The notes under the pieces were generated by a model. The model did no database searches and was not told the DNA's origin. It saw only the letters and a list, made by a program, of their open reading frames with translations. Both the position numbers and the translations under genes were made by a program. Shown here in pieces: positions 24,207 through 62,164 of a stretch of DNA of 64,000 nt; the stretch's first letter is position 1, and each line of letters opens with the position of its first letter. Source of the stretch: Terriglobia bacterium (lineage in GTDB: Bacteria > Acidobacteriota > Terriglobia > JAIQFV01); assembly GCA_020072965.1 (NCBI GenBank), contig JAIQFY010000020.1:1-64000 (forward strand), written 5' to 3'.

Positions 24207-24557
24207 TTCATTCACTACGATAGGAATTGATAAGCTGAGTAAGAGCCATTCTTGAGTAGCGTCACTGCGACCCATACAAGCTCAGTGCTCCAGGTTACAC
24301 AATACTTTTCACCATTTTTGAATCTCTTATTTCAGCCCGATCACCAATCTTCCCGCATTTAAATCCGGTGCTGAGGGATGCTGCCGACAACAGAGAATCA
24401 ATGTGTGGAGGGAGTTGTCGGAATGGATGGGGCGGGGGGTGTCTGTGCGGGCAACCCGACCCACAGAGACGTCGCTGAGGGGGCCTCGATCCGACGCCGT
24501 ATTCATTAGTATGTCCTTGAATTATCTGGCTGCGTGCCAGACAGGGTGAAGGGTACT
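24207..24557 (+). other. long untranslated leader of the bc operon, possibly structured
   Basis: No open frame with a ribosome binding site is apparent. The second half contains possible stems: GCCGACAAC with GTTGTCGG (about 24390-24430), GTCTGTG...CACAGAGAC around CGGGcaaCCCG (about 24440-24472), and CTGGCtgcgtGCCAG (24526-24540). It could be a regulatory leader or contain a second promoter. Confidence 0.35.
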
Positions 24558-25154
24558 ATGGCAGAATCAACGGATGCAACAGTTCTCGGCCAGAATTCGA
24601 AGCCGGAGGTAAATCCGGCGCCGGCCAAGCCCGCCGCCAAGCCGGCCAAGACCGGGGCTGGCGAGGGGGAAGACGAGATCCTCGGAAAGCGGCGCCGCAT
24701 CATCTGGGCTTGCATCGTGGGCTATCTTAGTGTCAGTTTCCTGATGTTCCTCCGTTTTTTCTTCCCGCGCACCCTGTTTGAACCGAGCACCATCTTCAAG
24801 GTCGGTTATCCTTCGGACTTCTCCATTGGCGTCGATACCAAGTTCCAGAAAGCCTACCGGATTGCCGTGGTGAGGGAGCCGGAGCGTTTGTTCGTCATCT
24901 ATTTGAAATGCACCCATCTAGGATGCACTCCCGACTGGAAGCCCGCGGAGGATAAATTCAAGTGCCCGTGTCATGGAAGCGGCTACACCAGCGAGGGAGT
25001 CAACTTCGAGGGGCCCGCGCCTCGCCCGATGGATCGCGCCCGGGTGGAGCTGGATGCGGAGGGGCAGATCGTGGTGGATACAGGAAGGGTCTATTCCTGG
25101 CCCAAGGGACAGCCGTCGCACTTCAATGATCCGGGAGCTTTCATCGCCGTCTAG
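24558..25154 (+). CDS. Rieske [2Fe-2S] protein of a b6-type cytochrome bc complex
   Basis: A 198-residue membrane-anchored subunit that takes the first electron from quinol and passes it to cytochrome c. An Ala/Pro/Lys-rich N-terminus is followed by one membrane helix (about 48-69). The cluster motifs are CTHLGC (C118, H120, C123) and CPCHGS (C136, C138, H139). GPAPRPMDRARVEL after the second motif is typical of bacterial b6f/bc Rieske domains. The ATG at 24558 follows GAAGGG with good spacing, so I reject the upstream GTG at 24534. First gene of the bc operon. Confidence 0.93.
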   Translation: MAESTDATVLGQNSKPEVNPAPAKPAAKPAKTGAGEGEDEILGKRRRIIWACIVGYLSVSFLMFLRFFFPRTLFEPSTIFKVGYPSDFSIGVDTKFQKAYRIAVVREPERLFVIYLKCTHLGCTPDWKPAEDKFKCPCHGSGYTSEGVNFEGPAPRPMDRARVELDAEGQIVVDTGRVYSWPKGQPSHFNDPGAFIAV

Positions 25155-25218: not shown

Positions 25219-26157
25219 ATGGCAGACGAGAACGGCAACAATAAAGGCCAGAAGGGGCTGACTTCGGTCCTTGACAAAGTCAAGGAAGATACCCGCGCCC
25301 TCAAGGACAAAGCTGCCGAAGAGTTCAAGACTTACAAGGATTTTGACCGCACCCAGTTGTTCAAGTCCGTGTTCCGGGTGAAGCACGACGACACCCCGCG
25401 TGGGCGTGCCCTGGGCATCCTCACCAATGTTTTTCTTCACCTCCACCCGGCCAAAATCAACCGTGACGCCGTTCGTTACAGCTACACCTGGGGAATGGGA
25501 GGGATCTCCTTCTACCTCTTTATTGTTCTGACCTTCACCGGGGTCCTGCTGATGTTTTATTACCACCCCACGAAAGGGCAGGCCTTCCGCGACATCCTTT
25601 ATCTGGAGGCGGATGTTCCGTTTGGAATGCTGTTGCGCAACATGCACCGGTGGGCGGCGCACCTCATGGTCATTACAGTATGGCTGCATATGTTCCGCGT
25701 TTTCCTGACGGGGTCTTACAAGAAGCCGCGAGAATTTAATTGGGTGGTCGGGGTCGTCCTCATGTTACTGACCCTGCTCCTTTCCTTTACCGGCTACCTG
25801 CTGCCGGACGACCAGTTGGGTTTCTGGGCCGTGACGGTGGGGACCGGTATGGCTCGTGCTACGCCTCTGCTCGGCAATGAGGGGCCGTTTGGCCCGCAAC
25901 TCGGAATGAACCCGTTCAATGACATTCGATTCGCGCTGCTGGGCGGATCGATCGTGGATGCCAACGCGTTGCTGCGGTCTTATATCTGGCATTGCATCGG
26001 GATCCCCATCCTCATCTCGATCTTCATGGCGGTGCACTTCTGGCGCGTTCGAAAGGACGGGGGCATCTCCGGTCCGGCGCCGGTCATGCTGGAGTCTGAA
26101 ATCAAGGAATTGAAGCGGGGCGCTGTGGCCGCGCCGACCAAGGCGGGAGGGCACTGA
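25219..26157 (+). CDS. cytochrome b, N-terminal (b6-like) subunit
   Basis: A 312-residue membrane protein carrying the two b haems. Ligands are H143 and H157 (14 apart) and H258 and H273 (15 apart). The 15-residue spacing in the second helix is the b6f type rather than bc1. [17 protein letters not shown] is the quinol-site region, with PDDQ where most relatives have PWDQ. There is a charged N-terminal extension of about 75 residues before the first helix. CGGAG precedes the ATG. The stop overlaps the next start (TGATG), so the two halves of cytochrome b are translationally coupled. Confidence 0.92.
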
Positions 26158-27092
26158 TGGACTGGCAACAACTTTGGCAAATTGCTTCCACGCCCGATAA
26201 TATCCCCATTGTGGCGCTCTTGTTTCTTATACCGTTCTATACGTGGTATGCCTTCCGTCAAGCCCGCGCCAATGATCGTTTAATCGGGGCTTTAGAGGGG
26301 AATCCCGAACTCGCCAAGACCCATCATCGAAAGACACTTCCTTTCAAACCCGAGTGGCCCCGGGAAGTGCATGTCTGGCCCTACCTGCTCCGGATCGAAT
26401 TCTTGGCGGCCATTATCGTGACAGTGGTCTTGATGATTTGGTCCATCACGTTGAATGCCCCGTTGGAGGAACCGGCCAACCCCAATTTCACCATGAACCC
26501 GGCCAAGGCCCCCTGGTATTTTCTCGGCTTGCAGGAGATGCTGGTTTACTTCGATCCCTGGATGGCAGGAGTTGTTCTCCCCAGCCTGATCCTGGTGGGT
26601 CTGGCGGCCATTCCCTACATGGACGAAAACCCGCTGGGCGCGGGCTACTACACCCTCAAGCAGCGCAAGTGGTCCATTGGTGCTTTCTGTTTCGGTTTTT
26701 TAGTCCTGTGGCTGATCATGATCTTTATCGGGACTTTTATCCGCGGCCCGGGGTGGATGTGGTTCTGGCCGGGACAAACCTGGGACCACAGCCGCGTCGT
26801 CTTTGAGGTGAACCGCGACTTGCCTGACTTCCTATTAATTACGAGTGCGTGGGGGAAGGGCATTTTCGGCGCCATTGTCATGGGCGTTTACTATGGGCTC
26901 GCGGGCCTGCTGGTTCACAAGGTCGTTACGCTGAATGATTTTAACCGGAAGATTTTCAAGCGGATGAGCGTGCTGCAGTATCTCACGTTGCAGTTTTTCC
27001 TGATCACCATGATGCTACTCCCGCTGAAGATCTTCATCCGTCACGCATTTCGTATCAAATACATCTGGATCACACCATGGTTCAATATCTGA
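26157..27092 (+). CDS. cytochrome b, C-terminal (subunit IV-like) subunit
   Basis: A 311-residue membrane protein corresponding to subunit IV of b6f complexes and completing the quinol-oxidising site. The segment [19 protein letters not shown] near residue 115 is the PEWY-loop region, here APWY. It is longer than usual subunit IV and than its counterpart at 60.7-61.4 kb (232 residues): extra helices (ISAWGKGIFGAIVMGVYY-like region and YLTLQFFLITMMLLPLKIF) follow the GPGWMWFWPGQ segment. Start overlaps the previous stop by 1 nt. Confidence 0.9.
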   Translation: MDWQQLWQIASTPDNIPIVALLFLIPFYTWYAFRQARANDRLIGALEGNPELAKTHHRKTLPFKPEWPREVHVWPYLLRIEFLAAIIVTVVLMIWSITLNAPLEEPANPNFTMNPAKAPWYFLGLQEMLVYFDPWMAGVVLPSLILVGLAAIPYMDENPLGAGYYTLKQRKWSIGAFCFGFLVLWLIMIFIGTFIRGPGWMWFWPGQTWDHSRVVFEVNRDLPDFLLITSAWGKGIFGAIVMGVYYGLAGLLVHKVVTLNDFNRKIFKRMSVLQYLTLQFFLITMMLLPLKIFIRHAFRIKYIWITPWFNI

Positions 27093-27125: not shown

Positions 27126-30100
27126 GTGCCTGAGACACCGACGCCTGCGCCCGAAGAGCAAGATCCGGTTACGAGCAATTCCTACAGTGTCATTTATCTT
27201 GTCGCCTCGGTCCTTCTGATCCTGACCCTGTTCTGGGCGCTGTACGACGAAGTGTATGGATTGCGTCCGTGGAAGGGTTATCAGAAGGAATTTGTCTCTC
27301 GCTACCTGGCCCATTTGAAGAAGTTGAAACCCCAGGAAAAGGGCGCGGAAGAAGAGATCAAGAAGACCGAGGGATACCAGGAACTGGACCGCGCCTATAA
27401 ATCCGCGGAACTGGAAGCCGCCCCCCGCGTCAAGGAGATTGATCGGCAGGTGGGTCTGATCGATGACCGGGCAACGGCTTTGACCGATACCTTCCAGACC
27501 CGGCGGAGTGAAGTGAGCGCGAAGATTTACGAGATCGAGCACGCCTCGGCGCGCTCGAAGGTTTCGTTGGAAAAAGACCTTGAAGGCATCAAGAAAGAAG
27601 CCCCTTCAATAGAGTTGCCTTTGCTCGATGGTTCGGGAAAAAGAGAAAAGGTCAGCTACACGTTCGAACAGTTGGAAAAGGAGTTCGACCGCCTGAAAGG
27701 AATGAAAGCCGATCTGCTCTCGCAGCGACTGGAGACTCTGAAACAAGCCAGTGATCTCCGCAAGAAGCGGGATCAATACCTTGAAGACCGCATGATCGGT
27801 TTGACGGAGCAGCAGGTGAACTCCTTGATCTCGAAGATGGAGGATTTCAAGGTCGAAATCAAGCAGATCAATGTGCCCGAGTATGGCATCGTGGATCGGT
27901 GCGAGTCGTGTCACGTGGGCATCCGCGAGCCCCTGGTCCTCGAGGCCAAGGACATGGGGGGCGAGAAGGCCTTCACGTCGCATCCCGATAATGAGCTTCT
28001 CAAAATTCACGACCCCGACCGCTTCGGGTGCACTCCCTGCCACAACGGAAATGGTCGCGCCACCATCAGCGCGGAGCGGGGTCACGGTCAATTCGAGCAT
28101 TGGCTTTGGCCGATGTACGCCACGAAGAACGCCGAGTCGGGTTGCGTGCAGTGTCATCTCAGTGATATTGTGCTCGACCACGCCGACACGCTGAATTATG
28201 GCCGGGAGATGTATTGGGAACGCGGTTGCATGGGCTGCCATCGATATGAGGGATACGACAAGGAGCCGGAGCAGTTGCTGGCGGTGAACCAGACTCTCCG
28301 CTCGCTGGAGGGCCAAAAGAAGGAGGATCAGAAGCAGATCACGGCTTTGGAAAAGGAGTCTGAAAACGCGGCCACCAACGAAGAGGCGCGGCGGCTTCTG
28401 GCCAAGGCCCAAGAGATCCCCATGAAGATCAGCCTGCTGGATGCCCAGATGGAGCAGCTCGACATGCAATCCAAGAGCCTGTTGAGGGAACAGAAAAAAA
28501 TCGGCCCGAACCTCAAGGATGTCCGTCTCAAATTGAAGAAGGAATGGATCCCCGTGTGGCTGGAGCAGCCGACGGCGTTTCGTCCCACCACCAAGATGCC
28601 CAATTTCCGCCTGTCACAGGAGCAACGCGAGGCCATCGCCGCTTTCGTCTGGCAGTCGGGGACGGGAACGGCACCTCCCGCCCAGCCTGCGGGAGATTCA
28701 CAAAGCGGCAAGGAGCTTTTCGAGACACGGGGTTGCCTCGCCTGCCATTCGATCGGGGAGGGCAGCGACAAGACGGGCGGAACCTTTGCGGCGAATCTGA
28801 GCCGCGTCGGTGAAAAGGCAAGCTACGATTACCTGGTGCGCTGGGTTCACAACCCGCGGGAACGAACACTGCCATACTGCCCTTACGAGAAGAAAGACAT
28901 CACGGCGGCCGACTATGCCAAGCACGGCCTGCCGTACGTTTTTGACCCTGACCACTCCAAGTGTCCCAACGACGGGCATGAGCTCCAGGTGCAACAAACC
29001 ACCGTCATGCCGAGTTTGCGGCTGTCGTGGAAGGAGGCGCAGGATATTGCCTCCTACCTCGTGACCCAGCGGCGCCCTAATGCTTCGTATCCCGCGGCCC
29101 CTTTCATGGATGACCCCGGGTTGAAGGCTAAGGGGGAGCAGTATGTGAAGTTCTACGGATGCGCCAGCTGCCACGAAATTGCGGGGCTGGAGGAGGAAGG
29201 TCGCATCGGGACGGAGCTGACGAAGGAAGGCAGCAAGCCCATCGATAATTTCGACTTTGCGCTTCAAACACGCAAGGCCAGGAACGAAAGTTGGTACACC
29301 GCGAAGGGCTTCATCGAGCACAAGCTGCAACAACCGGAGGTTTACGATACCGGGATGGTCAAGGCGCCGCTCGAAAAGCTCCGGATGCCCAATCCGCACC
29401 TCGATGATCAACAGCGATCGGCCATCACCACGTTTCTGATTGGCAGTGTGGATTCCTCATGGCCCAAAGAAATCTTTTACAATCCTTCCGGGCAGGGAAA
29501 AGACATCCAGGAGGGTTGGTGGATCGTCAGAAAGTACAATTGCATGGGGTGTCATCAAGTCCGCCTGGGACAGCGGTCGGTGCTTATGGATTTGCCGCGG
29601 TACCAGAATCCGGATTGGCGGGAACAGTTGCCTCCGCGGCTGGTCGGCGAAGGGGCCCGGGTGAACCCCCAGTGGTTAGAACAATTCCTGGCGAACCCGG
29701 CGCTCAGCATGACTGAGACGGACCGCAACGGCGTCCGGCCTTATCTCAAGGCTCGCATGCCGACCTTTTTCTTTTCGCCCGACGAAATCCGAAAACTGGT
29801 GCGCTTCTTCATGGCGTTGTCGACGCAGGCCGAGCCTTATATTCCGCAGAAGCTGGAAGCCTTGTCCCCCCAGGAAACGCAAATGGCGAGAGAGCTTTTC
29901 ACTTCCAAAGCGGCCCCCTGCTTGAAGTGTCATGCCACCGGCGAACTAACGCATGACAAGAGCGCCACCGCCCCGAATTTCCTCCTGGCCAGGGACCGGT
30001 TGAAGCCGAATTGGACCGGGCGCTGGATTGCAGACCCGGCGGTGATTAGTCCGGGCACATCGATGCCCTCGAACCTGTTTAAAGTGCAGGAGGGACGGTA

Positions 30101-30224
30101 CGTCTTTTCCGGACCGCTGCCGGATATTTTCAAAGGGTATGACAAGGACCAGATTGCATTACTGGTCCGCTATATGTTTGAGCTGACCCCGGAGGAGCAG
30201 CGACAGCTCTTGTCGCGGCGATGA
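27126..30224 (+). CDS. octaheme cytochrome c of the bc complex, with coiled-coil insert
   Basis: A 1032-residue membrane-anchored, periplasm-facing cytochrome. One helix (about 20-42) is followed by a charged, heptad-like helical region from about 55 to 245. Eight CXXCH motifs start at C259, C302, C340, C368, C537, C679, C806 and C932: four clustered, then four single-heme modules. A second helical stretch lies at about 385-465. GTG start after AGGAGGG. It probably replaces cytochrome c1 and a soluble cytochrome c, conducting electrons from Rieske to the oxidase. The homologous 708-residue protein at 58.6-60.7 kb lacks the long coiled coil. Confidence 0.88.
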   Translation: MPETPTPAPEEQDPVTSNSYSVIYLVASVLLILTLFWALYDEVYGLRPWKGYQKEFVSRYLAHLKKLKPQEKGAEEEIKKTEGYQELDRAYKSAELEAAPRVKEIDRQVGLIDDRATALTDTFQTRRSEVSAKIYEIEHASARSKVSLEKDLEGIKKEAPSIELPLLDGSGKREKVSYTFEQLEKEFDRLKGMKADLLSQRLETLKQASDLRKKRDQYLEDRMIGLTEQQVNSLISKMEDFKVEIKQINVPEYGIVDRCESCHVGIREPLVLEAKDMGGEKAFTSHPDNELLKIHDPDRFGCTPCHNGNGRATISAERGHGQFEHWLWPMYATKNAESGCVQCHLSDIVLDHADTLNYGREMYWERGCMGCHRYEGYDKEPEQLLAVNQTLRSLEGQKKEDQKQITALEKESENAATNEEARRLLAKAQEIPMKISLLDAQMEQLDMQSKSLLREQKKIGPNLKDVRLKLKKEWIPVWLEQPTAFRPTTKMPNFRLSQEQREAIAAFVWQSGTGTAPPAQPAGDSQSGKELFETRGCLACHSIGEGSDKTGGTFAANLSRVGEKASYDYLVRWVHNPRERTLPYCPYEKKDITAADYAKHGLPYVFDPDHSKCPNDGHELQVQQTTVMPSLRLSWKEAQDIASYLVTQRRPNASYPAAPFMDDPGLKAKGEQYVKFYGCASCHEIAGLEEEGRIGTELTKEGSKPIDNFDFALQTRKARNESWYTAKGFIEHKLQQPEVYDTGMVKAPLEKLRMPNPHLDDQQRSAITTFLIGSVDSSWPKEIFYNPSGQGKDIQEGWWIVRKYNCMGCHQVRLGQRSVLMDLPRYQNPDWREQLPPRLVGEGARVNPQWLEQFLANPALSMTETDRNGVRPYLKARMPTFFFSPDEIRKLVRFFMALSTQAEPYIPQKLEALSPQETQMARELFTSKAAPCLKCHATGELTHDKSATAPNFLLARDRLKPNWTGRWIADPAVISPGTSMPSNLFKVQEGRYVFSGPLPDIFKGYDKDQIALLVRYMFELTPEEQRQLLSRR

Positions 30225-30371: not shown

Positions 30372-31157
30372 ATGACCAAAATCAAAGTTGTTTCATTCCT
30401 AATCGTCTCTGTCCTGATTATGGCGATGTTTGTCTCGGGGTGCGCTAAGAAGTCCGAACCCAGTGAAGAAACCGCCGCCCCCGCGCAGAAGGCGCCGACA
30501 GCGATCGATCAAGCCACAGTCGGAACCATCACCGGCAAGATCTCTTACAGCGGCGCAAAACCCACGCCAAAAGTAATTCACATGGATACGGAGCCTGCAT
30601 GTGTGTCGTCGAACTCCGGTCCCGTGTACACGCAGGACCTGGAAGTGAATTCCAACAACACCTTGAAAGACGTGTTTGTGTCGGTGAGCGGGGGGGTGGA
30701 CAATTACACCTTCACGGTCCCCACCACACCCGCCACACTCGACCAGAGGGGATGCACGTATCATCCGCATGTATTGGGGGTGATGGCCGGGCAGGCCCTC
30801 CAGGTCCTGAACAGCGACAACACCACGCATAACATTCATCCCATCCCAAAGGAGAATCCGGAATGGAACACCTCCATGCCCCCCAAGGCACAGCCGCTGG
30901 ACAAGAAATTCAATCGTCCCGAGACGATGATTCCGGTGAAGTGCAATGTGCATCCTTGGATGAAGGCCTACATTGGGGTCGTGAAGAATCCCTTCTTCAG
31001 CGTGACGGGGGACGACGGGAGTTTTGAGATTAAGGGTTTGCCCCCGGGGGACTATACCGTTTCGGCGTGGCAGGAGAAGCTTGGAACCCAGACGATGAAG
31101 GTCACGGTGGGACCCAAAGAAAGCAAGACCGTCGATTTTTCGTTCAAGGGCGAGTAA
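30372..31157 (+). CDS. lipoprotein with cupredoxin-like copper motif and carboxypeptidase-regulatory-like domain
   Basis: A 261-residue lipoprotein (lipobox FVSGC at residues 20-24). The central domain has features of a blue-copper fold: NSDNTTHNIH supplies a His, and VKCNVHPWMKAYIGV gives the C-x2-H-x2-M order of a type 1 copper site. The last 60 residues (SFEIKGLPPGDYTVSAWQEK) form a carboxypeptidase-regulatory-like beta-sandwich. It lies between the bc-complex and oxidase genes on the same strand, so it may shuttle electrons between them. That role is inferred. Similar proteins without copper exist, so metal binding needs proof. Confidence 0.7.
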   Translation: MTKIKVVSFLIVSVLIMAMFVSGCAKKSEPSEETAAPAQKAPTAIDQATVGTITGKISYSGAKPTPKVIHMDTEPACVSSNSGPVYTQDLEVNSNNTLKDVFVSVSGGVDNYTFTVPTTPATLDQRGCTYHPHVLGVMAGQALQVLNSDNTTHNIHPIPKENPEWNTSMPPKAQPLDKKFNRPETMIPVKCNVHPWMKAYIGVVKNPFFSVTGDDGSFEIKGLPPGDYTVSAWQEKLGTQTMKVTVGPKESKTVDFSFKGE

Positions 31158-32437: not shown

Positions 32438-33376
32438 TTGAGTACACCATCAATTGTTCTCGACAAGAAGCAACCCTTGCGCGACCCAATCTTCAAATTG
32501 GGCCGATCGCGTAGCCTTCTAAAGACACTGACCGATTATTCCGAACTCACCAAGCCGAATATCACGTTCCTGGTCGTCCTGAGTAGTACGGCAGGTTTCT
32601 GTTTGGGGACCGCCGGGCCGCTGAGCTATCTTCGACTCCTTCATCTAATGGCGGCTGTCGCCCTCCTCTCGAGCGGCATTGGTGCGTTGAACCAATATAT
32701 GGAGCGGGACCTGGATGGGCGGATGCACCGGACCGAGCATCGCCCCCTCCCGATGGGGAAGATCTCGCCTCTGCCCGCTTTGTTGTTTGGAATGGGAATC
32801 ACCGTGGCCGCCGAGGCGTATCTCGCCCTTGTCCTGAATCCCCTGTCCGCATTGCTCGGATTGCTCACGGTCATGACTTACCTTCTGATTTACACGCCCC
32901 TCAAGACGCGGACTCCCTGGTGCACCTTTCTGGGTGCGTTTCCCGGGGCGATGCCTCCTCTGGTTGGTTGGGTTGCCATCCGGGGGTCGATTTCCCTGGA
33001 GGCATGGGTCCTCTTCGGGATTGTTTTTCTGTGGCAGTTCCCGCACTTCCATTCCATTGCCATGATGTACCGGGAGGATTACGCTCGCGCCGGCATTCGC
33101 ATGCTCCCGGTGGTCGAACCCGATGGCAAGGCCACCGGGAGGCAAATTGTCGGGTACACGCTGGCGCTTCTTCCGCTCAGCCTGATGCCGGCGTTTTTGA
33201 AGATCTCGGGGACGGTTTATCTTGCGGGCGCGGTCCTTCTCGGTGTGGGGTTTCTCTACTATGCCATTCGCTGCGCACAGGATAAGACCAAGTCGCGGGC
33301 ACGCTATCTTTTGCAGGCCTCGGTTTTCTACTTGCCCCTCTTGTTTGGACTGATGGTTCTGAATCAGATGGGGTAA
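32438..33376 (+). CDS. ctaB: protohaem IX farnesyltransferase (haem O synthase)
   Basis: A 312-residue UbiA-superfamily membrane enzyme that adds a farnesyl chain to protohaem, making haem O for CtaA. The signatures are KPNITFLVVLSSTAGF near residue 40, NQYMERDLDGRMHRTEHRPL (the first Asp-rich motif, residues about 86-105) and WQFPHFHSIAMMYREDYARAG. Initiation is at a TTG preceded by GGGAGAG. Its stop overlaps the region of the coxB gene only if the latter's upstream GTG/ATG is used. Confidence 0.94.
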   Translation: MSTPSIVLDKKQPLRDPIFKLGRSRSLLKTLTDYSELTKPNITFLVVLSSTAGFCLGTAGPLSYLRLLHLMAAVALLSSGIGALNQYMERDLDGRMHRTEHRPLPMGKISPLPALLFGMGITVAAEAYLALVLNPLSALLGLLTVMTYLLIYTPLKTRTPWCTFLGAFPGAMPPLVGWVAIRGSISLEAWVLFGIVFLWQFPHFHSIAMMYREDYARAGIRMLPVVEPDGKATGRQIVGYTLALLPLSLMPAFLKISGTVYLAGAVLLGVGFLYYAIRCAQDKTKSRARYLLQASVFYLPLLFGLMVLNQMG

Positions 33377-33438
33377 TGGTCGGGCTGCGCTCCGGAACGC
33401 GTGACGCGGGTCAGATTGATCAACGGGAGGATGTAAAC

Positions 33439-34233
33439 ATGGGTTTGGCGATTGCGCTGGTGCTTGTGCTGTTATGCGTGGTGAGCGTCATCATGTTTTC
33501 GGGGCATTATTGGTGGTTTCCCCCGCTTATCTCCACCTACACGGGCTACGACAAGCAATTCATGCTGACACTGATAATTGTGGCGATCGTGTTCATCCTG
33601 GCGCAGCTTGCGCTGGGCTACTTTGTTTGGAAGTACCGCGACCGGGCGGGCCGGAAGGCCACGTACGTCGAAGGCAACAATACGATGGAGGTCTTGTGGA
33701 CCAGTATCACCTTTGTGATTTTCATCGGGTTGGGAATCCTGGGCCAGAGAGTGTGGGCACAATTCCATTTTGCCGAGCCGCCGGCCAACGCCATGGAAGT
33801 CGAAGTGACCGGGCAACAGTTCCAGTGGAACATCCGATACCCCGGAGCGGACGGACAGTTCGGTCGGACGGAAGCGAAATACGTGGATGAATCCGCACTG
33901 AACTTTGTGGGAGTCGATCCCCATGACCCCGCCGGAAAGGATGACATCGCCAGCATCAATCGCATGGTGATCCCGGTCAATCAGCCAGTCAAAGTCCTCC
34001 TCCACTCGAAGGACGTCACGCACAGCTTCTTCGTCCCCGGGCTGCGAATCAAACAGGATGCGGTCCCCGGGATGACCATTACCATCCATTTCACTGCCAC
34101 CAAGACCGGTGAGTACGAAATCCCCTGTGCCGAACTGTGCGGCCTCGGGCATTACAAAATGCGCGGAATCCTCGATGTGAGGACACCCGTCGAATACCAG
34201 CAGTGGTTGAAGAAGCAGGCGAGCCAGGAATAG
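33439..34233 (+). CDS. ctaC: cytochrome c oxidase subunit II (CuA)
   Basis: A 264-residue subunit with two N-terminal helices and a periplasmic cupredoxin domain. The CuA centre is complete: His in KDVTHSFFVPGL, then CAELCGLGHYKM (two Cys, His, Met). WNIRYPGADG is the aromatic electron-entry region. No CXXCH is fused to its C-terminus, so this is a plain aa3-type subunit II rather than a caa3 form. The ATG at 33439 follows GGGAGG. An upstream in-frame ATG at 33376 overlaps ctaB and has no site. Confidence 0.93.
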   Translation: MGLAIALVLVLLCVVSVIMFSGHYWWFPPLISTYTGYDKQFMLTLIIVAIVFILAQLALGYFVWKYRDRAGRKATYVEGNNTMEVLWTSITFVIFIGLGILGQRVWAQFHFAEPPANAMEVEVTGQQFQWNIRYPGADGQFGRTEAKYVDESALNFVGVDPHDPAGKDDIASINRMVIPVNQPVKVLLHSKDVTHSFFVPGLRIKQDAVPGMTITIHFTATKTGEYEIPCAELCGLGHYKMRGILDVRTPVEYQQWLKKQASQE

Positions 34234-34251
34234 ACAGCACTCACGCAGGGA

Positions 34252-34325
34252 GATCCGCCGCGGCGGATCGGTTTGACGGTTAGTTTCGGATTCGTAGGGT
34301 GATCCGCCGCGGCGGATCGCCCTAC
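34252..34325. repeat. two copies of GATCCGCCGCGGCGGATC hairpin between ctaC and ctaD
   Basis: Perfect palindrome at 34252-34269 and again at 34301-34318. The second is extended by GTAGGG...CCCTAC (34294-34325). A relative with the same outer arms lies at 38544-38580. These are REP-like elements. The second ends 15 nt before the ctaD ribosome binding site and could tune relative expression of the two subunits. Confidence 0.7.
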
Positions 34326-34352
34326 ATGAGCAGACCAACAGGGAGAAGACTA

Positions 34353-36128
34353 ATGGGAGAACCGACACACGCGGTTCATGTGCATCACGCACCGAAAGGA
34401 TTCATCCGGAAGTACATCTTCAGCACCGATCACAAGGTGATCGGGATCCAGTACTACTTTCTCGCTCTGTTTTCCGTGGTCCTGGGAATGCTGTTGTCGG
34501 TGCTCTTTCGGCTCCACCTTGCCTGGCCCAACGCTAATTGGGATCTTCTGGGCAAGTTATTTCCGACTGGAATGGCGGGGGGATTGATGACCCCCGAGTT
34601 TTACCTTTCGCTCGTGACGATGCACGGGACCTTGATGGTATTCTTCGTCCTGACGACCGCGCCGCAGAGTGGATTTGGAAATTATTTTCTGCCCATTCAG
34701 ATCGGGGCGGACGACATGGCCTTCCCCGTTCTCAACATGCTTTCGTTCTGGATCACGTTCGTTGCGCTCGTGGTGATGGTGATGGCGCTGTTTGCGACCG
34801 GAGGGGCTCCGCTGTCGGGATGGACCGCATATCCGCCGCTCAGTGCGCTCGGAAAGATCTCAGGTCCCGGCGAGGGACTGGGGCAAACGCTATGGGTCAT
34901 CAGTCTCGCCATTTTCTGTGTCGGCTCATTGCTGGGGGCCCTGAACTTCATTACCACTACCCTGAATCTGCGGGCCAAAGGGATGACGTTGTTGCGGATG
35001 CCCCTGACCGTGTGGGCTTGGTTCACCACGTCCATCCTGGCGCTTCTGGCGTTTCCGGTGCTGCTGGCCGGCGGCATCCTCCTTGTTTTGGATCGGGTGG
35101 GTGGAACCAGCTTTTTCATCCCGGCGGGCCTGGTCGTGAATGAACAGCTCGTCAATCACAGTGGCGGCTCACCGCTCCTCTGGCAGCATCTGTTCTGGTT
35201 CTTCGGTCACCCTGAGGTCTACATCGCCATTCTCCCCGGGATGGGGGTGGCTTCACAGTTGCTGTCCACGTTTTCCCGCAAGCCGGTGTTCGGGTACAAG
35301 GCCATGTTTTCCGCCATGCTTGCCATCGGATTTCTGGGGTTCTTCGTCTGGGGCCACCACATGTTTATCAGCGGCATGAGCCCTTACTCGGCGGTGGCCT
35401 TCTCGTTGCTGACCCTGGCGATAGGGGTCCCCTCCGCCATCAAGACCTTTAACTGGCTCGGCACGCTCTGGCAGGGCAAGATTCAATTCACCTCGGCGAT
35501 GCTCTTTGCCATCGGATTTGTCTCCCTGTTTGTGACGGGCGGAGTGAGCGGGATCTTCCTGGGTCAGACCAGCCTCGACCTCTACCTGCATGATACCTAT
35601 TTCGTGGTCGGTCACTTCCACATGATCATGGGTGTGGCGGCGCTCTTTGGGATCTTTGGCGCCACTTACTATTGGTTCCCGAAAATGTTTGGACGCATGC
35701 TGAACGAACCGCTCGGAAAGATCCACTTCTGGTTCACGTTTATCGGGGTCAATGCGATCTTCTTTCCGATGCATATCATGGGGGTTGCCGGGCACCCGCG
35801 GCGCTATTCCGACGCCAGTAATTTCAACTATCTTTCCTCCATGCATCCCTTGCACGAATTTATCACCGTAGCTGCGATCGTCACCGCCACGGCCCAACTG
35901 TTCTTCCTTCTGAATTTCTTCTGGAGCTTGTGGAAGGGGAAGAAGGCGGAAATGAATCCGTGGAATGCCACCACGCTGGAGTGGACGGTCCCGTCACCAC
36001 CGCCTCATGACAATTTCGGCGGAAAACTTCCGGTGGTTTATCACGGAGCTTATGAATACAGCGTCCCGGGGGCCAAGCAGGATTTCATCATGCAGGATTC
36101 TCCGGAAAAGATAATCGAGGCAACGTAG
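34353..36128 (+). CDS. ctaD: cytochrome c oxidase subunit I
   Basis: The 591-residue catalytic subunit (haem a, haem a3-CuB), with 12 or more helices. Visible motifs are FSTDHKVIGIQYYF near the start, MHGTLMVFF (haem a His), GHPEVYIAILPGMGV (CuB His, cross-linked Tyr and the Glu of the proton path), WGHHMFISGM (two CuB His) and HDTYFVVGHFHMIMG (haem a and a3 His). IGADDMAFPVLNMLSFW has Val where PRLN is usual. GGGAG lies 7 nt before the ATG at 34353. In-frame starts further up run through the hairpin repeat and are rejected. Confidence 0.95.
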   Translation: MGEPTHAVHVHHAPKGFIRKYIFSTDHKVIGIQYYFLALFSVVLGMLLSVLFRLHLAWPNANWDLLGKLFPTGMAGGLMTPEFYLSLVTMHGTLMVFFVLTTAPQSGFGNYFLPIQIGADDMAFPVLNMLSFWITFVALVVMVMALFATGGAPLSGWTAYPPLSALGKISGPGEGLGQTLWVISLAIFCVGSLLGALNFITTTLNLRAKGMTLLRMPLTVWAWFTTSILALLAFPVLLAGGILLVLDRVGGTSFFIPAGLVVNEQLVNHSGGSPLLWQHLFWFFGHPEVYIAILPGMGVASQLLSTFSRKPVFGYKAMFSAMLAIGFLGFFVWGHHMFISGMSPYSAVAFSLLTLAIGVPSAIKTFNWLGTLWQGKIQFTSAMLFAIGFVSLFVTGGVSGIFLGQTSLDLYLHDTYFVVGHFHMIMGVAALFGIFGATYYWFPKMFGRMLNEPLGKIHFWFTFIGVNAIFFPMHIMGVAGHPRRYSDASNFNYLSSMHPLHEFITVAAIVTATAQLFFLLNFFWSLWKGKKAEMNPWNATTLEWTVPSPPPHDNFGGKLPVVYHGAYEYSVPGAKQDFIMQDSPEKIIEAT

Positions 36129-36365
36129 CAAAGCGCCTCCCGCGGGCGCTCTCCCTGCCAGATGGAGGCGCGGGAACGCGGGAGATGATTTTTATAAAAG
36201 GCGGACGGATCCGAATGGCGCTTAGTTAAGAGATTGAGATGGAGATTGACCCGCTTCCCCGCCGCGGCGGGGGAAGTCTTCAATAGCCCAGGGTCGGCCG
36301 CCTTGCGGCCTACTCTGGGTGGGGGATCGCCCCAAGAGAAGAAGGAACCTTAAGGAGTTTCAGAC
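36129..36365. repeat. palindromic repeats between ctaD and the first subunit III gene
   Basis: Contains CTTCCCCGCCGCGGCGGGG (about 36253-36271) and CCCAGGGTCGGCCGCCTTGC with its imperfect complement ending ctctgggt (about 36286-36321), plus gcgcctcccgcggg/cgcgggaacgcgggag stretches. No coding sequence. The true ribosome binding site (AAGGAG) for the next gene is at its right end. Confidence 0.6.
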
Positions 36366-37022
36366 GTGCCGACAGTGACCATGCCTGAAGTGGAGATTGG
36401 TCCTCGACGAACCGGGGGCGGGGCTTCAGATTTTGGAGGTGGTGGGCGAGATGATTTTCGAGGGCGTGGGGGACCGCACGTACCGGTCAACAGCTATCGG
36501 CTCGGGGTGTGGTTTGGCCTTGGGGCCATTCTCATGCTGTTTGTCGCATTTACCAGCGCGTACATCTACCGCCAGGGTCTCTCATTTGATTGGCAGCCGC
36601 TCAGCCCGCTGCCGATCTTATGGTTTAACACCGGAGTCCTGGTGCTCAGCAGCCTTACTTTTGAATTGGGACGCCGCGCGCTCAGGCAGGATCTCACCGG
36701 CGCCTTCGGTCGCTGGTTGACGATGACAACAATCTTCGGGATCGCGTTTCTGACGGGCCAGTACTTGGCATGGAAACAACTGGCGGCGAGCGGGATTTTC
36801 CTGGGAACTAATCCGCACAGCTCTTTTTTCTACGTGCTGACAGGCACGCATGCGCTGCATTTGGTGGGGGGCGTCCTGGCCCTGGCCTACGTCCTGGTGG
36901 GTGCATGGCGACAGAAGTACACATCCCGGGAGTGTGCCGCAGTTGACGTCACGGCAGTGTACTGGCATTTCATGGATGGTCTTTGGATCTATCTCTTCCT
37001 GTTGCTCTTCCTGTGGAGGTAA
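36366..37022 (+). CDS. cytochrome c oxidase subunit III (first copy)
   Basis: A 218-residue membrane protein of the oxidase subunit III family. It has a Gly-rich N-terminus (GGGASDFGGGGRDDF), then five or six helices with WFNTGVLVLSS, FYVLTGTHALHLVGG and VYWHFMDGLWIYLFLLLFL, the segments that bind lipid in the family. GTG start after AAGGAG. It is followed 3 bp later by a second, different subunit III gene. Confidence 0.88.
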   Translation: MPTVTMPEVEIGPRRTGGGASDFGGGGRDDFRGRGGPHVPVNSYRLGVWFGLGAILMLFVAFTSAYIYRQGLSFDWQPLSPLPILWFNTGVLVLSSLTFELGRRALRQDLTGAFGRWLTMTTIFGIAFLTGQYLAWKQLAASGIFLGTNPHSSFFYVLTGTHALHLVGGVLALAYVLVGAWRQKYTSRECAAVDVTAVYWHFMDGLWIYLFLLLFLWR

Positions 37023-37025
37023 CGA

Positions 37026-37664
37026 ATGAGTGATGCTGAAGTGAGGGTGGAAGCGCTGGGCGCAGGCGACTGGGGAGGCGGCTCGCTTCCCTACGCAGTC
37101 GGATCGAAGAAATTCGGGATGTGGCTGTTCATCATTTCCGACGCCCTGACGTTTTCAGCGCTGTTGATTGCCTACGGTTACGTGCGTTTGGCGAACAAGA
37201 ATTGGCCGGAACCCTTTGAATTTTACCCAAGCCTGGTAACTGCCACCGTCATGACCCTGTGCCTCCTTTCGAGCAGTCTGACGATGGTCATGGCCGTGGC
37301 CGCCCGGAAGCGAGAGGATCGGCCTGCCACCATGAAATGGCTCTGGGCGACGATCGCAGGCGGGCTGGCTTTTCTTGTTCTGCACGCCAACGAGTGGCTG
37401 AAGCTCATCGGAGAAGGAATGCGCCCCTTTTCCAATCCCTGGGGGTCGCCGCTCTTCGGCGCCTCTTTTTTTACCCTGACCGGACTTCACATGTTTCACG
37501 TGGTCACGGGAGTATGTTTCCTCGGCGTCGTGGCCGTGGCCACCGGCCGGGGGAAGTTCACTTCCGAGGACGTTGAGATGAGTGGGCTGTACTGGCACTT
37601 CGTCGATCTGGTCTGGATGTTCATCTTTCCACTGGTCTATGTGCTGTCGATCCATCATGGATGA
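37026..37664 (+). CDS. cytochrome c oxidase subunit III (second copy)
   Basis: A 212-residue relative of the preceding protein but clearly diverged. It has KKFGMWLFIISDALTFSALL near the N-terminus (the usual bacterial CtaE start), then FFTLTGLHMFHVVTG and GLYWHFVDLVWMFIFPLVY. By sequence this is the more canonical subunit III. Both copies may be present in one oxidase, resembling the split arrangement of some haem-copper oxidases, or serve different enzymes. Confidence 0.88.
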   Translation: MSDAEVRVEALGAGDWGGGSLPYAVGSKKFGMWLFIISDALTFSALLIAYGYVRLANKNWPEPFEFYPSLVTATVMTLCLLSSSLTMVMAVAARKREDRPATMKWLWATIAGGLAFLVLHANEWLKLIGEGMRPFSNPWGSPLFGASFFTLTGLHMFHVVTGVCFLGVVAVATGRGKFTSEDVEMSGLYWHFVDLVWMFIFPLVYVLSIHHG

Positions 37665-37728
37665 GCATGGAACAACGTAGCGCGGCTGAGTCGAAGCCGT
37701 TGGATCCCAATCGAGGAGAATCGATTCT

Positions 37729-38049
37729 ATGAGCCACCCTGCAGGCGCGGAACATGCCGAACCCGCTTCAAAGCTTTTCATCTGGGTGTGGATTTGGCTA
37801 TTGCTGCTGACGGCAGTGGAAGTCGTCCTGGGATACGAACAATATCCGGTGAAGCTGATGTTGACGATGCTGATGTCGCTATCGGTGATCAAAGCGGCCT
37901 TGATCATGGCGTACTTTATGCATTTGCGGTTTGAGAAATTGAAATTGGTCTTGACCCTGGTCCCGGCGCTCGTCGTCATCCTTTGCCTGTTCTCAATCTT
38001 CTTCTTCCCCGACAGCCTGCGGCTCATGAATCTCGGTTGGGGGAGATAG
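37729..38049 (+). CDS. cytochrome c oxidase subunit IV (prokaryotic type)
   Basis: A 106-residue protein with three predicted helices. The segment SVIKAALIMAYFMHLRFEK is the signature of the small prokaryotic subunit IV family (CyoD/CtaF-like), which stabilises the CuB site during assembly. It lies 64 bp after the second subunit III gene. The final member of the oxidase gene set apart from the small protein that follows. Confidence 0.88.
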   Translation: MSHPAGAEHAEPASKLFIWVWIWLLLLTAVEVVLGYEQYPVKLMLTMLMSLSVIKAALIMAYFMHLRFEKLKLVLTLVPALVVILCLFSIFFFPDSLRLMNLGWGR

Positions 38050-58075: not shown

Positions 58076-58597
58076 TCACTTGGTTGAACCCTCCTCCTTG
58101 GAGGTCTGCTTGACGGAATATTGTGAGGCTGGCCGGGCCGGAGGATGGTAAGGAGGCTGCGCCACTGCGCGGGTGTATGCGATGACGGCTCGGATTTCCT
58201 CTTGTGAGAGCGTTCGGCCCCAGGGAGGCATCATAGCGGATTTTCCCATAGCACTGCCCCCGAGCGTGATGATGTTCCGGAGGAATTCATCACTCAAAGG
58301 GTTCAGAATGGACCCATCATTAATGAGTGAAGGAGTGGGGCTGACGTTCGAACGGTTTGAGGGGCCGGCTGGCGTCGCCTCTGCATGGCACCAAACGCAT
58401 TTCTCATAGAATACCCGTTTACCCTGGGACTGTTCGAAATTCAGCGGAATGAGGCGATCGGGGTTTGTCCAGTCTCGCTCCACATCGTAAGCAGTGATGG
58501 TGGGATCAGTCTGGGCTGAGGAAGTTTTTCCCCGGCAGGAACACTGGACCGCGAGCATTACAAAGGCAAGTAAGAGCAGCAACCCACTCCGCTTCAT
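58076..58597 (-). CDS. monohaem cytochrome c lipoprotein
   Basis: A 173-residue protein with an N-terminal signal and a lipobox-like sequence (LAVQCSC near residue 19). One haem motif, CVWCHAEATP (C67), with the Met ligand probably in MMPPWGRTLSQEE, and RAVIAYTRAVAQ as the final helix: a class I cytochrome c. It overlaps the octaheme gene by 4 bp (ATGA), so it is a partner of the second bc complex and may carry electrons onward from it. Confidence 0.88.
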   Translation of the reverse strand: MKRSGLLLLLAFVMLAVQCSCRGKTSSAQTDPTITAYDVERDWTNPDRLIPLNFEQSQGKRVFYEKCVWCHAEATPAGPSNRSNVSPTPSLINDGSILNPLSDEFLRNIITLGGSAMGKSAMMPPWGRTLSQEEIRAVIAYTRAVAQPPYHPPARPASQYSVKQTSKEEGSTK

Positions 58598-60720
58598 CGG
58601 CTGCCTCCGGGTGTGCCAACCGTTCCGCGAGGGGCTGGGATGTGGGGGTTCTGCCGGAGTGTTGTCAGGTAGGCCGTCAGTGACTTTATTTCCTCATCAG
58701 TGAAATCACGGCGGGGCTCGATGGTATCTGGAACAAGGGCCTGGGGATTCTTCAGCCACGCGGTGATCCAGGCGGCATTCATCCAGTTCCCCACATTATT
58801 GAGATTCGGTCCCACATATCCCCCGGTCGCTCCGATGGTATGGCAAGACTGACATTGGTATTTCACTTCATAAAGCTGCTTGCCCAGGTTGGCCATCTCC
58901 GGGGTGAATTCCTTGGGACTCACGCTGTCCGGATTCACAGAAGGACTCTGGGTAACCATCCCGAGATAATCCGCCAGAATGGCAGCCTCTTCCTCAGTCA
59001 TTCCGAACTGGGGCATCCGGGAGGTGAGAGCGGGGCGCAAGGTTTGCGGGTTCCTCAGGAAGGCGATGAGCCAGGGCCGTTGCGCGCGGCTGCCTTCAAA
59101 CGAGAGATCCGGTGCTAGGGTGCCCCCGAAACCATTGAAGCGATGGCACACATAGCATTTGTATCGTTCGTAGACCTCGCCAAATTTTCCGGCGGGGCGG
59201 AACCTTGCTTGTGGAGCCGGCACAACGAGCTGGGCATAGGCGGCAGTTGCCGGCTGGCCCGTCATACTCAACAAGGCCGCGGTCAGGGCCTCCAGATCCT
59301 CGGGCTTGAGATGATATTGGGGCATTCGGGCCGCAGGATTGACAGAGACAGGGTCGGCGATCTTTGCCCGGATATAGGCAACAAGGGTGTGGGGAATCCT
59401 TGCCTCGCCAAATAGCAATTGCGAAACCGTTTTGCTGCCCAACTGGGAGAGGTCCGGACCAAAATCCGATGGCGACTTCACGCCCTTGATGGCATGGCAA
59501 CTGGCACAACCTTTCTCCAGGAAAAGTCGTTGTCCCAATTGAATTTCATCGGGCCGGGGTGGACCCAGCGATGGAAGGTTGCTCAACAAGTCCGGGTCGG
59601 TCAGATTCGATTGAATGTACCGGGTGACTTTGAAGAGATCTTCGTCGGTCCACTGGTATTGTGGCATCAGTGCATGAGGTAAGTATTCACCCGGATTCCG
59701 CAGCCAGGCGATCAGCCAGTCGCCATTGACCTTGCTCCCAACTTTGGAGAGCTCGGGCCCAATATCCCCGCCGATGAGTTTGGTCTCTCCGGCGCGGGTG
59801 ACCGCCAGGGAGTGGCAAGTGACACAAAACATCTGACGGAAGCGCACTTCTCCTTGTTGTGCGAGGTCAGCCTTTTTTTCCCAGGCTGCGATGACACGGG
59901 CATCGAACTTATAGGGCTCGAGGGGCTTACTCTTGAGCGAACTGAGATAACCGGAAAGGGCCCTGAGCTCCTGCTCATTCAGTCGGAACTGAGGCATTCG
60001 GGGTTCTTCTTCATTCTCGTAGCCATTCACCACCACGTTGCCGTTGCTATCCGTGATGGTGCGCGGCTCCTTGAGCCACTTGTAAACCCACTCCCGGCTG
60101 ACCTTGTTGCCCACTTCGGTAAGGTCCGGGCCGATCATTGCGGGGCGCTCAATTCCCTGCAAACGATGACATCCCACACAGTTGAGGTCTTCCAGGAGTT
60201 CGCGACCCCGATTGAGCTTGGGCGTGTCCGGAATCTCGCTGCGATGGCAGACCCCGCATGAAGCCTGGATGTATCCGACGGGCAAAAGGGGCTGTTCCCA
60301 CGCCAGGGTGGTTTGATGTGCTTCTTTCACTTCAGTGGCAAGACCCTGGCCCCGATGACACACGACGCATCCCCATTCCTTTGCCCGGTGTGGGATTGTG
60401 GGATGACCCCGGAAAGGCTCGGGAACCGAGCTATCAAGCAGGCTCGGTTGCGTGATTCCGAGGTGGCACGTGGAGCAACGGTCCACTACATTGAGGTTCG
60501 GAATCCAAATCTGGTCGATTCCGGAATGGAAATCAGCCAGAAGCCTCTTGGTATCCGGGCGAGTCTGGGCGAAGTGCACAAACTCCTTTTTGTATCGCTT
60601 CCATTGCTGGAGCAGATCCTTCAGGGGAGAGATGGCCAGGACGACCAAAAAGAGCACACTGGTAATCGCAAATGCCAGACGAAGGCCCTTCGATGGTTTT
60701 CCCATTTCTTCGTAATTCAT
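58594..60720 (-). CDS. octaheme cytochrome c of the second bc complex
   Basis: A 708-residue, N-terminally anchored cytochrome (helix about 12-31). The eight CXXCH motifs start at C82, C118, C155, C181, C299, C405, C522 and C623. The first four are clustered. The rest sit in four class I-like modules, each with a Met-containing MPQF/MPQY-type ligand loop. It aligns in plan with the 1032-residue protein at 27.1-30.2 kb. The ATG at 60720 follows GGAG, so an upstream start at 60777 inside the neighbour is rejected. It replaces cytochrome c1 in this operon. Confidence 0.9.
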   Translation of the reverse strand: MNYEEMGKPSKGLRLAFAITSVLFLVVLAISPLKDLLQQWKRYKKEFVHFAQTRPDTKRLLADFHSGIDQIWIPNLNVVDRCSTCHLGITQPSLLDSSVPEPFRGHPTIPHRAKEWGCVVCHRGQGLATEVKEAHQTTLAWEQPLLPVGYIQASCGVCHRSEIPDTPKLNRGRELLEDLNCVGCHRLQGIERPAMIGPDLTEVGNKVSREWVYKWLKEPRTITDSNGNVVVNGYENEEEPRMPQFRLNEQELRALSGYLSSLKSKPLEPYKFDARVIAAWEKKADLAQQGEVRFRQMFCVTCHSLAVTRAGETKLIGGDIGPELSKVGSKVNGDWLIAWLRNPGEYLPHALMPQYQWTDEDLFKVTRYIQSNLTDPDLLSNLPSLGPPRPDEIQLGQRLFLEKGCASCHAIKGVKSPSDFGPDLSQLGSKTVSQLLFGEARIPHTLVAYIRAKIADPVSVNPAARMPQYHLKPEDLEALTAALLSMTGQPATAAYAQLVVPAPQARFRPAGKFGEVYERYKCYVCHRFNGFGGTLAPDLSFEGSRAQRPWLIAFLRNPQTLRPALTSRMPQFGMTEEEAAILADYLGMVTQSPSVNPDSVSPKEFTPEMANLGKQLYEVKYQCQSCHTIGATGGYVGPNLNNVGNWMNAAWITAWLKNPQALVPDTIEPRRDFTDEEIKSLTAYLTTLRQNPHIPAPRGTVGTPGGSR

Positions 60721-60721
60721 G

Positions 60722-61420
60722 CTATCTCCACGGCCAGACCCAGGACCAACCGGGTCCACGGAAGAAGGTGCCGACAATAGTCAGGATAATGGCGACCGTG
60801 ATGAACCAGGTCATCACCCACCAGGAAAGAGGGCGAGAACCCAGGAACTCGAGGAAGCGTCCGCGACCCGCTGCGGGAACGTAGGCGGTTAGAGCGAGAC
60901 CGGAGATGACCACCGTCGGGATGATGACGGTCCACGCGTGGTAAATCCCGAAGAATACCAGGAGGACCACGATACAGCCCAGGAACAAGTTGAGACGCCT
61001 TCGAGGGTGATTCGCCCAGAGCGGTTCGCCCTGGATATTGACATTGAAATAGGGGATGAAGACGAGAGCGACCACCACCAGTCCGGGGATGAGGACCCCT
61101 GCGACGATGGGCGGAAAGTAGTGCAACAATTCCTGCAATCCCAGGAAGTACCACGGGGCCTTGGCGGGGTTTGGAGTCAAGAGGGGATTTGCCAGTTGCT
61201 CGAGGGGGGCATCCCAGAGAAGTGCGATCACAACCAGGACGATCGTCAGGATCTCGAAGGCAATGGCTTCCCGCAGGATGAGCTGGGGATAGGACATCAC
61301 CTGCCGTCCAACCTCGCCCTTCACCTTGGCTGAGGTTTTCTTCGTGATAAAAACAATTCGACGCGGTTCCTTCTGGGCGTCGGAACCAAAGCCGGCTTCG
61401 TATCTATTTTTCTCGCTCAT
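60722..61420 (-). CDS. cytochrome b subunit IV-like protein (second bc complex)
   Basis: A 232-residue membrane protein. [19 protein letters not shown] near residue 80 is the PEWY-loop region, again APWY. About five helices, ending [15 protein letters not shown], a segment also present in the 26.2-27.1 kb protein. It overlaps the cytochrome b gene by 17 bp and lies directly before the octaheme gene. The shorter of the two subunit IV-like proteins. Confidence 0.9.
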
Positions 61421-62156
61421 GGTCCTCTTTTACGGTCAAGCCGCCATCCTTTTGAACCCGCCAGAGATGGATGGCAATCAACATCACGGCGGCGAGGGGA
61501 AGGATCACAACGTGAAGCACATAGAAACGTAGTAGCGCGTTTTCGCCGATTTGATGACCTCCGAGCAACAGAAAGCGCATCGGTTGTCCTAAGAGGGGTA
61601 CGTAAGAAATGATGTTGGTTCCCACGGTAATGGCCCAGAAGGCCAACTGATCCCACGGCAGCAGGTACCCGGTGTAGCTCAGAAAGAGAGTAATCAAGAG
61701 CAGTCCAACCCCCACTACCCAGTTGAACTGATGGGGTGGTTTGTAGCCGCCGCGGTAGAAGACATGGAACATGTGCCAGAAGACAGCGATCACCATCGCT
61801 TCCGCACCAAACCGATGGAGGTTGCGCAGGAACACGCCATTGGACACAACGAAACGAAGATCCTTCATGTCGCGATACGCCTGGGGCACGGCCGGATGGT
61901 AATAGAGCATCAAAAGGATACCCGTGACGGACAGGAGCAGGAACAGAAAGAATGAGAATGAGCCCAGGTAATACGTTGCGCGGACTCGCAGGGACTTGTC
62001 GCGGACTTTGACCGGCAGGACGTGCAGGAAGAGGTTGCCGAAAACGGCCAGGCTGCGGGTGCGATTCGTGCGTGCGGGGCCGCGTCGGAAGATGGATTTC
62101 CAAACACGAGTGCTCCTCAACTGATCGAGTGCGCGCTGCGCCGAATTCATGATCAT
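61404..62156 (-). CDS. cytochrome b, b6-like subunit (second bc complex)
   Basis: About 250 residues, four core helices. Haem ligands: [17 protein letters not shown] gives two His 14 apart, and [19 protein letters not shown] two His 15 apart, the b6f-type spacing. [19 protein letters not shown] is the usual PWDQ quinol region. The start [10 protein letters not shown] at 62156 is preceded by GAGG within the end of the Rieske gene. The longer frame to 62378 overlaps the Rieske gene and is not used. Confidence 0.92.
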
Positions 62157-62164
62157 CGGTTTCC

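Follow-up and report, generated by a model that had tools for sequence, protein, structure and literature searches.

A 64,000-nucleotide stretch of DNA from a Terriglobia bacterium of the phylum Acidobacteriota (assembly GCA_020072965.1, contig JAIQFY010000020.1, positions 1 to 64,000; hereafter the window) encodes two large c-type cytochromes, each with eight CXXCH motifs and each next to genes for a split b6-type cytochrome b. The question raised by this arrangement is whether the two octaheme proteins, OCTA and OCTB, have a common origin, and what each of them would do in one cell. We show by motif-masked sequence comparison that OCTA and OCTB are true paralogues that share their order of domains and go back to a single octaheme protein, and that the loci to which they belong, A and B, are conserved but different operons. 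On balance we consider it probable that both loci encode quinol-oxidizing complexes of the Rieske/b6 type in which an octaheme cytochrome replaces cytochrome c1 or f, complex A being wired to an aa3-type oxidase and complex B being coupled to NAD(P).

Domain plan of the octaheme cytochromes

The two octaheme genes lie on opposite strands:

27126..30224, + strand: octaheme cytochrome c A (OCTA), intact open reading frame (ORF) of 1032 amino acids, eight CXXCH motifs
58594..60720, - strand: octaheme cytochrome c B (OCTB), 708 amino acids from ATG, eight CXXCH motifs

Fewer than 0.01 CXXCH motifs would be expected in either protein from its own composition, and a single transmembrane segment (residues 15-33) lies at the N-terminus of each. 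A first-pass annotation of the window had described two octaheme proteins with N-terminal anchors, and both are indeed intact ORFs of this kind. The size and the eight hemes that it gave for the second protein are also correct, although the strand needs correcting to minus.

The same annotation had divided the hemes into four clustered and four single ones, which does not agree with the domains that we find. The CXXCH motifs are at residues 259, 302, 340, 368, 537, 679, 806 and 932 of OCTA and at residues 82, 118, 155, 181, 299, 405, 522 and 623 of OCTB. In both proteins the membrane anchor precedes a c7-like triheme domain (residues 240-355 in OCTA and 60-166 in OCTB), which is followed by five class-I cytochrome c domains that hold the hemes at 368, 537, 679, 806 and 932 of OCTA and at 181, 299, 405, 522 and 623 of OCTB. 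The plan is therefore 3+5 and not 4+4, since the domain around the fourth CXXCH is of class I and has an invariant Met of its own (Met491 in A, Met242 in B). Pfam likewise places Cytochrome_C7 over the first part of OCTB and Cytochrom_C from heme 4 onward. OCTA has in addition a long helical stretch in its predicted structure (residues 48-222), which lies between the anchor and the hemes, and a coiled-coil insert (residues ~378-456) that splits its first class-I domain. A sister type of 950-1000 amino acids, which we call A', is found elsewhere in the phylum and is without this insert.

In 19 aligned A and A' proteins there is an invariant Met-Pro after each of hemes 4-8 (Met491, 628, 754, 878 and 980), and exactly three His outside the motifs are invariant (286, 295 and 320), which would be available as distal ligands to hemes 1-3. 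Eight hemes are retained in 75 of 80 A loci, the remaining ones being mostly cut by contig ends, and are kept by every aligned B protein. The aligned B proteins have Met after hemes 4-7 (Met242, 352, 466 and 569). Heme 8 of B is without Met (residues ~665-672): of 15 distinct aligned sequences, 14 have Glu, Cys, Asp or Gln in its place, and the loss of the Met ligand suggests other ligation or a reactive heme at this position.

Common ancestry and distribution

Without masking, BLASTP aligns OCTA and OCTB at 130-132 bits. With all CXXCH motifs masked the best segment still gives 66 bits (E 4e-15), against 25 bits or less in 100 masked shuffles, so that the homology reaches beyond the heme motifs. 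When motif-masked profiles of the six A/A' domains were compared with those of the six B domains, the diagonal topped every row and every column of the matrix, with scores of 122, 131, 129, 126, 108 and 83. The domain order and the diagonal pairing in A, A' and B, a triheme anchor and five class-I domains in identical order in both matrix and alignments, therefore show one octaheme ancestor. Hexaheme and heptaheme relatives have the triheme domain in common with this family (profile scores 63-112) and are without the string of class-I domains.

The cytochromes b of the host complexes give a consistent picture. In their tree, built without two mis-framed rows, type A is supported at 100/98, A' at 98/93 and A+A' at 100/99, type B at 90/89, and A+A' is sister to B at 96/93, with the hexaheme and heptaheme complexes (types C and H) outside this clade. 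The two complexes thus fall in one clade and not in unrelated families, and the description of the octaheme proteins as diverged paralogues is borne out by the masked alignment, the domain matrix and this tree. The alignment of a triheme-only tree is too short and its branches are long, and its inner order is not trusted.

A shared plan could also arise by convergence, if class-I domains had accumulated independently after a c7-like anchor. Domains of this class are ubiquitous, and in types C, H and D of the phylum the triheme anchor is joined to other C-terminal domains. Convergence would nevertheless have to account for motif-masked domain scores that peak on the diagonal throughout the six-by-six matrix, and in the cytochrome b tree the complexes that carry OCTA and OCTB are neighbours. 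We regard convergent domain accretion as very improbable and reject it, as it is already largely refuted.

Both types are widespread in Acidobacteriota. Some match to A is found in 47 of 61 relatives, with full-length orthologues at 47-94% identity, and the best 80 matches in a collection-wide scan are nearly all from genomes labelled Acidobacteria, Terriglobia or Bryobacterales; the few differently labelled genomes among them may be misbinnings. Full-length B orthologues occur in 28 of 296 other genomes of the phylum.

Genes that accompany the two cytochromes

Each octaheme gene follows genes for a b6-type cytochrome b and subunit IV, as first annotated, and also a Rieske gene, in each case on its own strand. 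The order of locus A is Rieske, b6, subunit IV, OCTA, cupredoxin-like protein, CtaA, CtaB, CoxB, CoxA, CoxC, CoxC and CoxD:

24534..25154, + strand: Rieske [2Fe-2S] subunit of complex A (Pfam Rieske; CTHLGC/CPCHGS)
25219..26157, + strand: b6-type cytochrome b of complex A (Pfam PF00033; H-13-H and H-14-H heme pairs)
26157..27092, + strand: subunit IV of complex A (Pfam PF00032; extended, ~6 hydrophobic segments, Qo motif APWY)
30372..31157, + strand: cupredoxin or carboxypeptidase-regulatory-type lipoprotein (Pfam matches the regulatory domain only)
31203-32159, + strand: CtaA, heme A synthesis (from sequence and conserved order in relatives)
32438-33376, + strand: CtaB, heme A synthesis (from sequence and conserved order in relatives)
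33376..38049, + strand: aa3-type cytochrome c oxidase, CoxB, CoxA, two CoxC and CoxD (NCBIfam TIGR02866 for CoxB)

The order of locus B is NAD(P) oxidoreductase, Rieske, b6, subunit IV, OCTB and a monoheme cytochrome c:

62671..63950, - strand: FAD/NAD(P) oxidoreductase with 4Fe-4S clusters, GltD/PRK12771-like, running beyond the window end
62165..62674, - strand: Rieske subunit of complex B (Pfam Rieske)
61404..62168, - strand: b6-type cytochrome b of complex B (Tyr at the heme c_i Cys position)
60722..61420, - strand: subunit IV of complex B (~5 hydrophobic segments, Qo motif APWY)
58076..58597, - strand: monoheme class-I cytochrome c of complex B (Pfam Cytochrome_CBB3)

We counted the partners of A in 80 A loci. 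The 63 with enough flank were scored for Rieske, b6 and subunit IV, and 57 for the cupredoxin-like and Cta/Cox genes. Rieske, b6 and subunit IV are upstream of OCTA in all 63, the cupredoxin-like gene adjoins OCTA in 56 of 57, and at least one of CtaA, CtaB, CoxA and CoxB is near OCTA on its downstream side in 54 of 57. No A operon has an NAD(P) oxidoreductase gene (0 of 80). CoxB of locus A has a CuA site and lacks the CXXCH motif, and the locus is without a gene for a soluble cytochrome c. The cupredoxin-like lipoprotein has a paralogue (L014:8652-9290) that matches Pfam Copper-bind, and it is possible that the lipoprotein is a soluble carrier. For B we examined 12 loci, that of the window and those of 11 relatives; the NAD(P) oxidoreductase gene is directly before Rieske in all 12, and the monoheme cytochrome c gene is present in most of them.

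Two further ORFs of the window were noted. A 450-amino-acid protein (56716-58068, - strand), conserved behind the B complex in several relatives at 29-85% identity, has no Pfam or NCBIfam match. The ORF at 16255-16608 is a low-complexity tandem repeat of a short peptide (GQKSEVRSRRSEV...) and is probably not a gene.

Redox sites and class of the complexes

The Rieske proteins of both loci contain CTHxGC...CPCHGS. Both cytochromes b are split into b6 and subunit IV and have the heme pairs H-13-H and H-14-H, and the closest PDB matches of both are cytochrome b6. Conservation extends to the ligands of the Rieske cluster, to the two His pairs of the b hemes and to the Met ligands of the class-I domains. 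A Ser is found beside the Rieske cluster in both A and B, and the position of the potential-raising Tyr is occupied by Tyr in A and by Phe in B. The four-residue Qo motif at the PEWY position varies between lineages (PMC9162462); it is APWY in all b6-multiheme loci examined, with Pro replacing the Glu.

The Cys position for heme c_i (c_n) in b6 is Gly in A (10/10), Tyr in B and Gly in C, and A and B are therefore not b6f complexes in the strict sense. Neither Pfam nor NCBIfam gives a match to cytochrome f in either locus, where the octaheme protein stands as the c-type subunit. The complexes are not of other established classes either. No genes of Alternative complex III (ActB; NrfD-type ActC/ActF) adjoin A or B, which have Rieske and cytochrome b instead, and the NCBIfam model for the actinobacterial bcc type (QcrC diheme, NF050122) reaches 39 and 69 bits, where its cut-off is 200.

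The heme c_i Cys was seen in the cytochrome b of A' only (8/8, for example in L078, L081 and L083). Since A has Gly in 10/10, heme c_i would have been gained or lost between sister complexes.

Proposed electron paths and their alternatives

In both complexes the Rieske head would pass the high-potential electron to the octaheme chain, and the second quinol electron would leave through the b hemes, in a Q-cycle or a variant of it. Complex A would then be a quinol:aa3-oxidase wire, probably within a supercomplex, with electrons reaching the CuA site of the neighbouring heme-less CoxB either directly or via the cupredoxin-like protein. On its cytoplasmic face complex B would be coupled to the NAD(P) oxidoreductase, and on its outer face to the monoheme cytochrome c of the same locus. 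The proposal of the first-pass annotation that the two are specialized for different partners stands at the level of synteny, which supports a partner specialization of A, with aa3-oxidase genes, and of B, with an NAD(P) oxidoreductase.

Several observations weigh against these assignments. CoxA and CoxB are each within the flank in 18 of 57 A loci, the remaining loci showing CtaA/CtaB only or having the oxidase farther away. The NAD(P) oxidoreductase gene of locus B is split at 63348 into two overlapping ORFs (L014 6671-8589), where a relative of the same genus (L097) has a single 648-amino-acid ORF that is 28 bp longer at the split; this is either a real gene split or an assembly error. The heme-free AlphaFold2 models of the two octaheme proteins are moderate (mean predicted local distance difference test scores of 70 and 71), with the triheme part poorly predicted. 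Searches with Foldseek and VIA-align matched the B model to single or paired class-I c domains only (SoxX, Kustd1711, QcrC) and returned noise from the long helices of the A model; a multi-domain match to the B model was not found, an absence that is uninformative.

Complex A might make no direct contact with an oxidase. OCTA would then reduce a diffusible carrier, which could be the cupredoxin-like lipoprotein or a cytochrome c from another locus, and the conserved neighbourhood would reflect co-regulation only. The near-constant cupredoxin-type neighbour and the minority of loci with structural cox genes within reach would both fit this, but eight hemes would exceed what a donor to a soluble carrier needs, and bc-oxidase supercomplexes are known in actinobacteria and have been proposed for acidobacteria (PMC8407424). 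We consider a diffusible carrier possible, if on the improbable side, and prefer the quinol:aa3-oxidase wire for A. For B the choice concerns the direction and mode of NAD(P) coupling. Kuenenia has two Rieske/b complexes with NAD(P) oxidoreductase, for which electron bifurcation has been proposed (PMC12954380), and B could act in the same way, one quinol electron reducing NAD(P)+ to NAD(P)H, driven by the passage of the other through Rieske and the octaheme chain. The fixed place of the oxidoreductase gene directly before Rieske, the Ser beside the Rieske cluster, conserved as in the high-potential Kuenenia proteins, and the conserved His in the N-terminal FLHxxP stretch of cytochrome b are all consistent with this. 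That His is however also present in A, where the oxidoreductase is absent, the heme c_N Cys of the Kuenenia models is absent from all B and C cytochromes b seen, and the oxidoreductase gene is interrupted in the window's assembly. We hold bifurcation to be rather unlikely. The oxidoreductase of B could also run in reverse, as an alternative dehydrogenase that passes electrons from NAD(P)H to the complex or to the quinone pool. Related GltD-type modules commonly take NADPH as donor, which counts for this direction; the fixed pairing with a Rieske/b core would however need another reason, and we hold the reverse direction to be unlikely.

If complex A is wired as we propose, electrons from quinol oxidation in a dominant soil phylum would exit through an eight-heme wire to the oxidase, and in complex B the same core, duplicated long ago, would have been re-coupled to NAD(P). 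The presence of several Rieske/b complexes in one cell, so far unexplained, becomes testable by comparison because A and B differ in partner and not in domain plan. The debate on NAD(P)-linked Rieske/b complexes, which has concerned anammox bacteria, would also be extended to a phylum with some culturable members.

Other Rieske/cytochrome b loci

The genome has five Rieske/cytochrome b loci, A, B and three more. The third (L015, G000 C1, 330-9563) encodes an NAD(P) oxidoreductase, Rieske, a fused b/IV protein and a hexaheme cytochrome c, together with a type II DMSO-reductase-family alpha subunit with a Tat signal and an FeS beta subunit, both above NCBIfam cut-offs, and its gene order is the same in four relatives. 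The cytochrome b of the fifth is fused to a diheme c. The fourth (L016 1999-9234, G000 C106) has two multiheme proteins, a NapC-like pentaheme and a nonaheme cytochrome whose C-terminus has a hydrophobic stretch, besides an FeS protein resembling HmcB and an NrfD-like protein. In a relative (L113 6006-14170), Rieske and fused b/IV genes occur with one for a heptaheme c that belongs to the triheme family described above; next to them are genes for an NAD(P) oxidoreductase, a monoheme c and an oxidase subunit resembling CcoN (cbb3).

One scenario would be that an ancestral Rieske/b6 core with a membrane-anchored triheme "socket" acquired different cytochrome tails and partners within Acidobacteriota: an aa3 oxidase in A, an NAD(P) oxidoreductase with a monoheme c in B, an NAD(P) oxidoreductase with an enzyme of the type II DMSO-reductase family in C/H, and a cbb3-like oxidase in D. 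Quinol bifurcation that makes NAD(P)H, so far proposed for anammox bacteria, would then also occur outside that group, in types B and C. We offer this tentatively, as it is unlikely to hold in full.

Comparison with known systems

Both octaheme Rieske/b complexes and an acidobacterial bc-oxidase superoperon were already known, and the statement of the first-pass annotation that large cytochromes replace c1 or f in other bacteria is met with in Kuenenia, Nitrospina and Methylomirabilis. Octaheme-linked b6-like operons are described for all three, and the accounts of Nitrospina gracilis and Methylomirabilis oxyfera resemble A and B in combining Rieske, split b6/IV and an atypical octaheme c in one operon; the likeness is to the operon description, and the part of that source on Nitrospina that bears on it does not state an oxidase or NAD(P) coupling (PMC3578206). 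The acidobacterial bc-caa3 "superoperons" (Trojan et al. 2021, PMC8407424) are like locus A in that complex III genes adjoin A1-type oxidase genes and a supercomplex is proposed. They differ in being described as bc1, and the word multiheme is absent from the text. ExtP and ExtQ of the Geobacter Ext complex are the top NCBIfam matches, below cut-off, of both cytochromes b and subunits IV. The Ext cytochromes have 4, 5, 10 and 12 hemes in contrast to the 3+5 octaheme plan, and the complex is linked to work on selenite/tellurite and Fe(III) (PMC5877670).

The comparison with the Kuenenia sequences was made on the Rieske parts only. The closest solved relative of the A Rieske is 9rk3 (Kustd1480; E 1.2e-40, 142 bits, against 86 for Kuste4569), and Kustd1480 is firmly inside the A/A' clade of the Rieske tree. 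That of the B Rieske is 9rk4 (Kuste4569; E 1.7e-27, 100 bits, against 67 for Kustd1480), but this pairing is not confirmed by the tree, in which Kuste4569 is not grouped within B. The models of the Kuenenia complexes include heme c_N, whose Cys is absent from the A, B and C cytochromes b examined, with Gly in its place in A. Kuste4569-4574 shares with B a b6-type b, a hexa/octaheme c and an NAD(P) oxidoreductase, and differs from B in its HAO-like octaheme enzyme as well as in the heme c_N Cys. Kustd1480-1485 has an NAD(P) oxidoreductase, unlike A, which stands with aa3-oxidase genes. It is like A in its b6-type b, its extended subunit IV and its large multiheme c with long helices, which are predicted in A and which in Kustd1485 wrap the Kuenenia complex (PMC12954380). 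The idea of several partner-specific Rieske/b complexes in one cell has likewise already been published for Kuenenia (PMC12954380).

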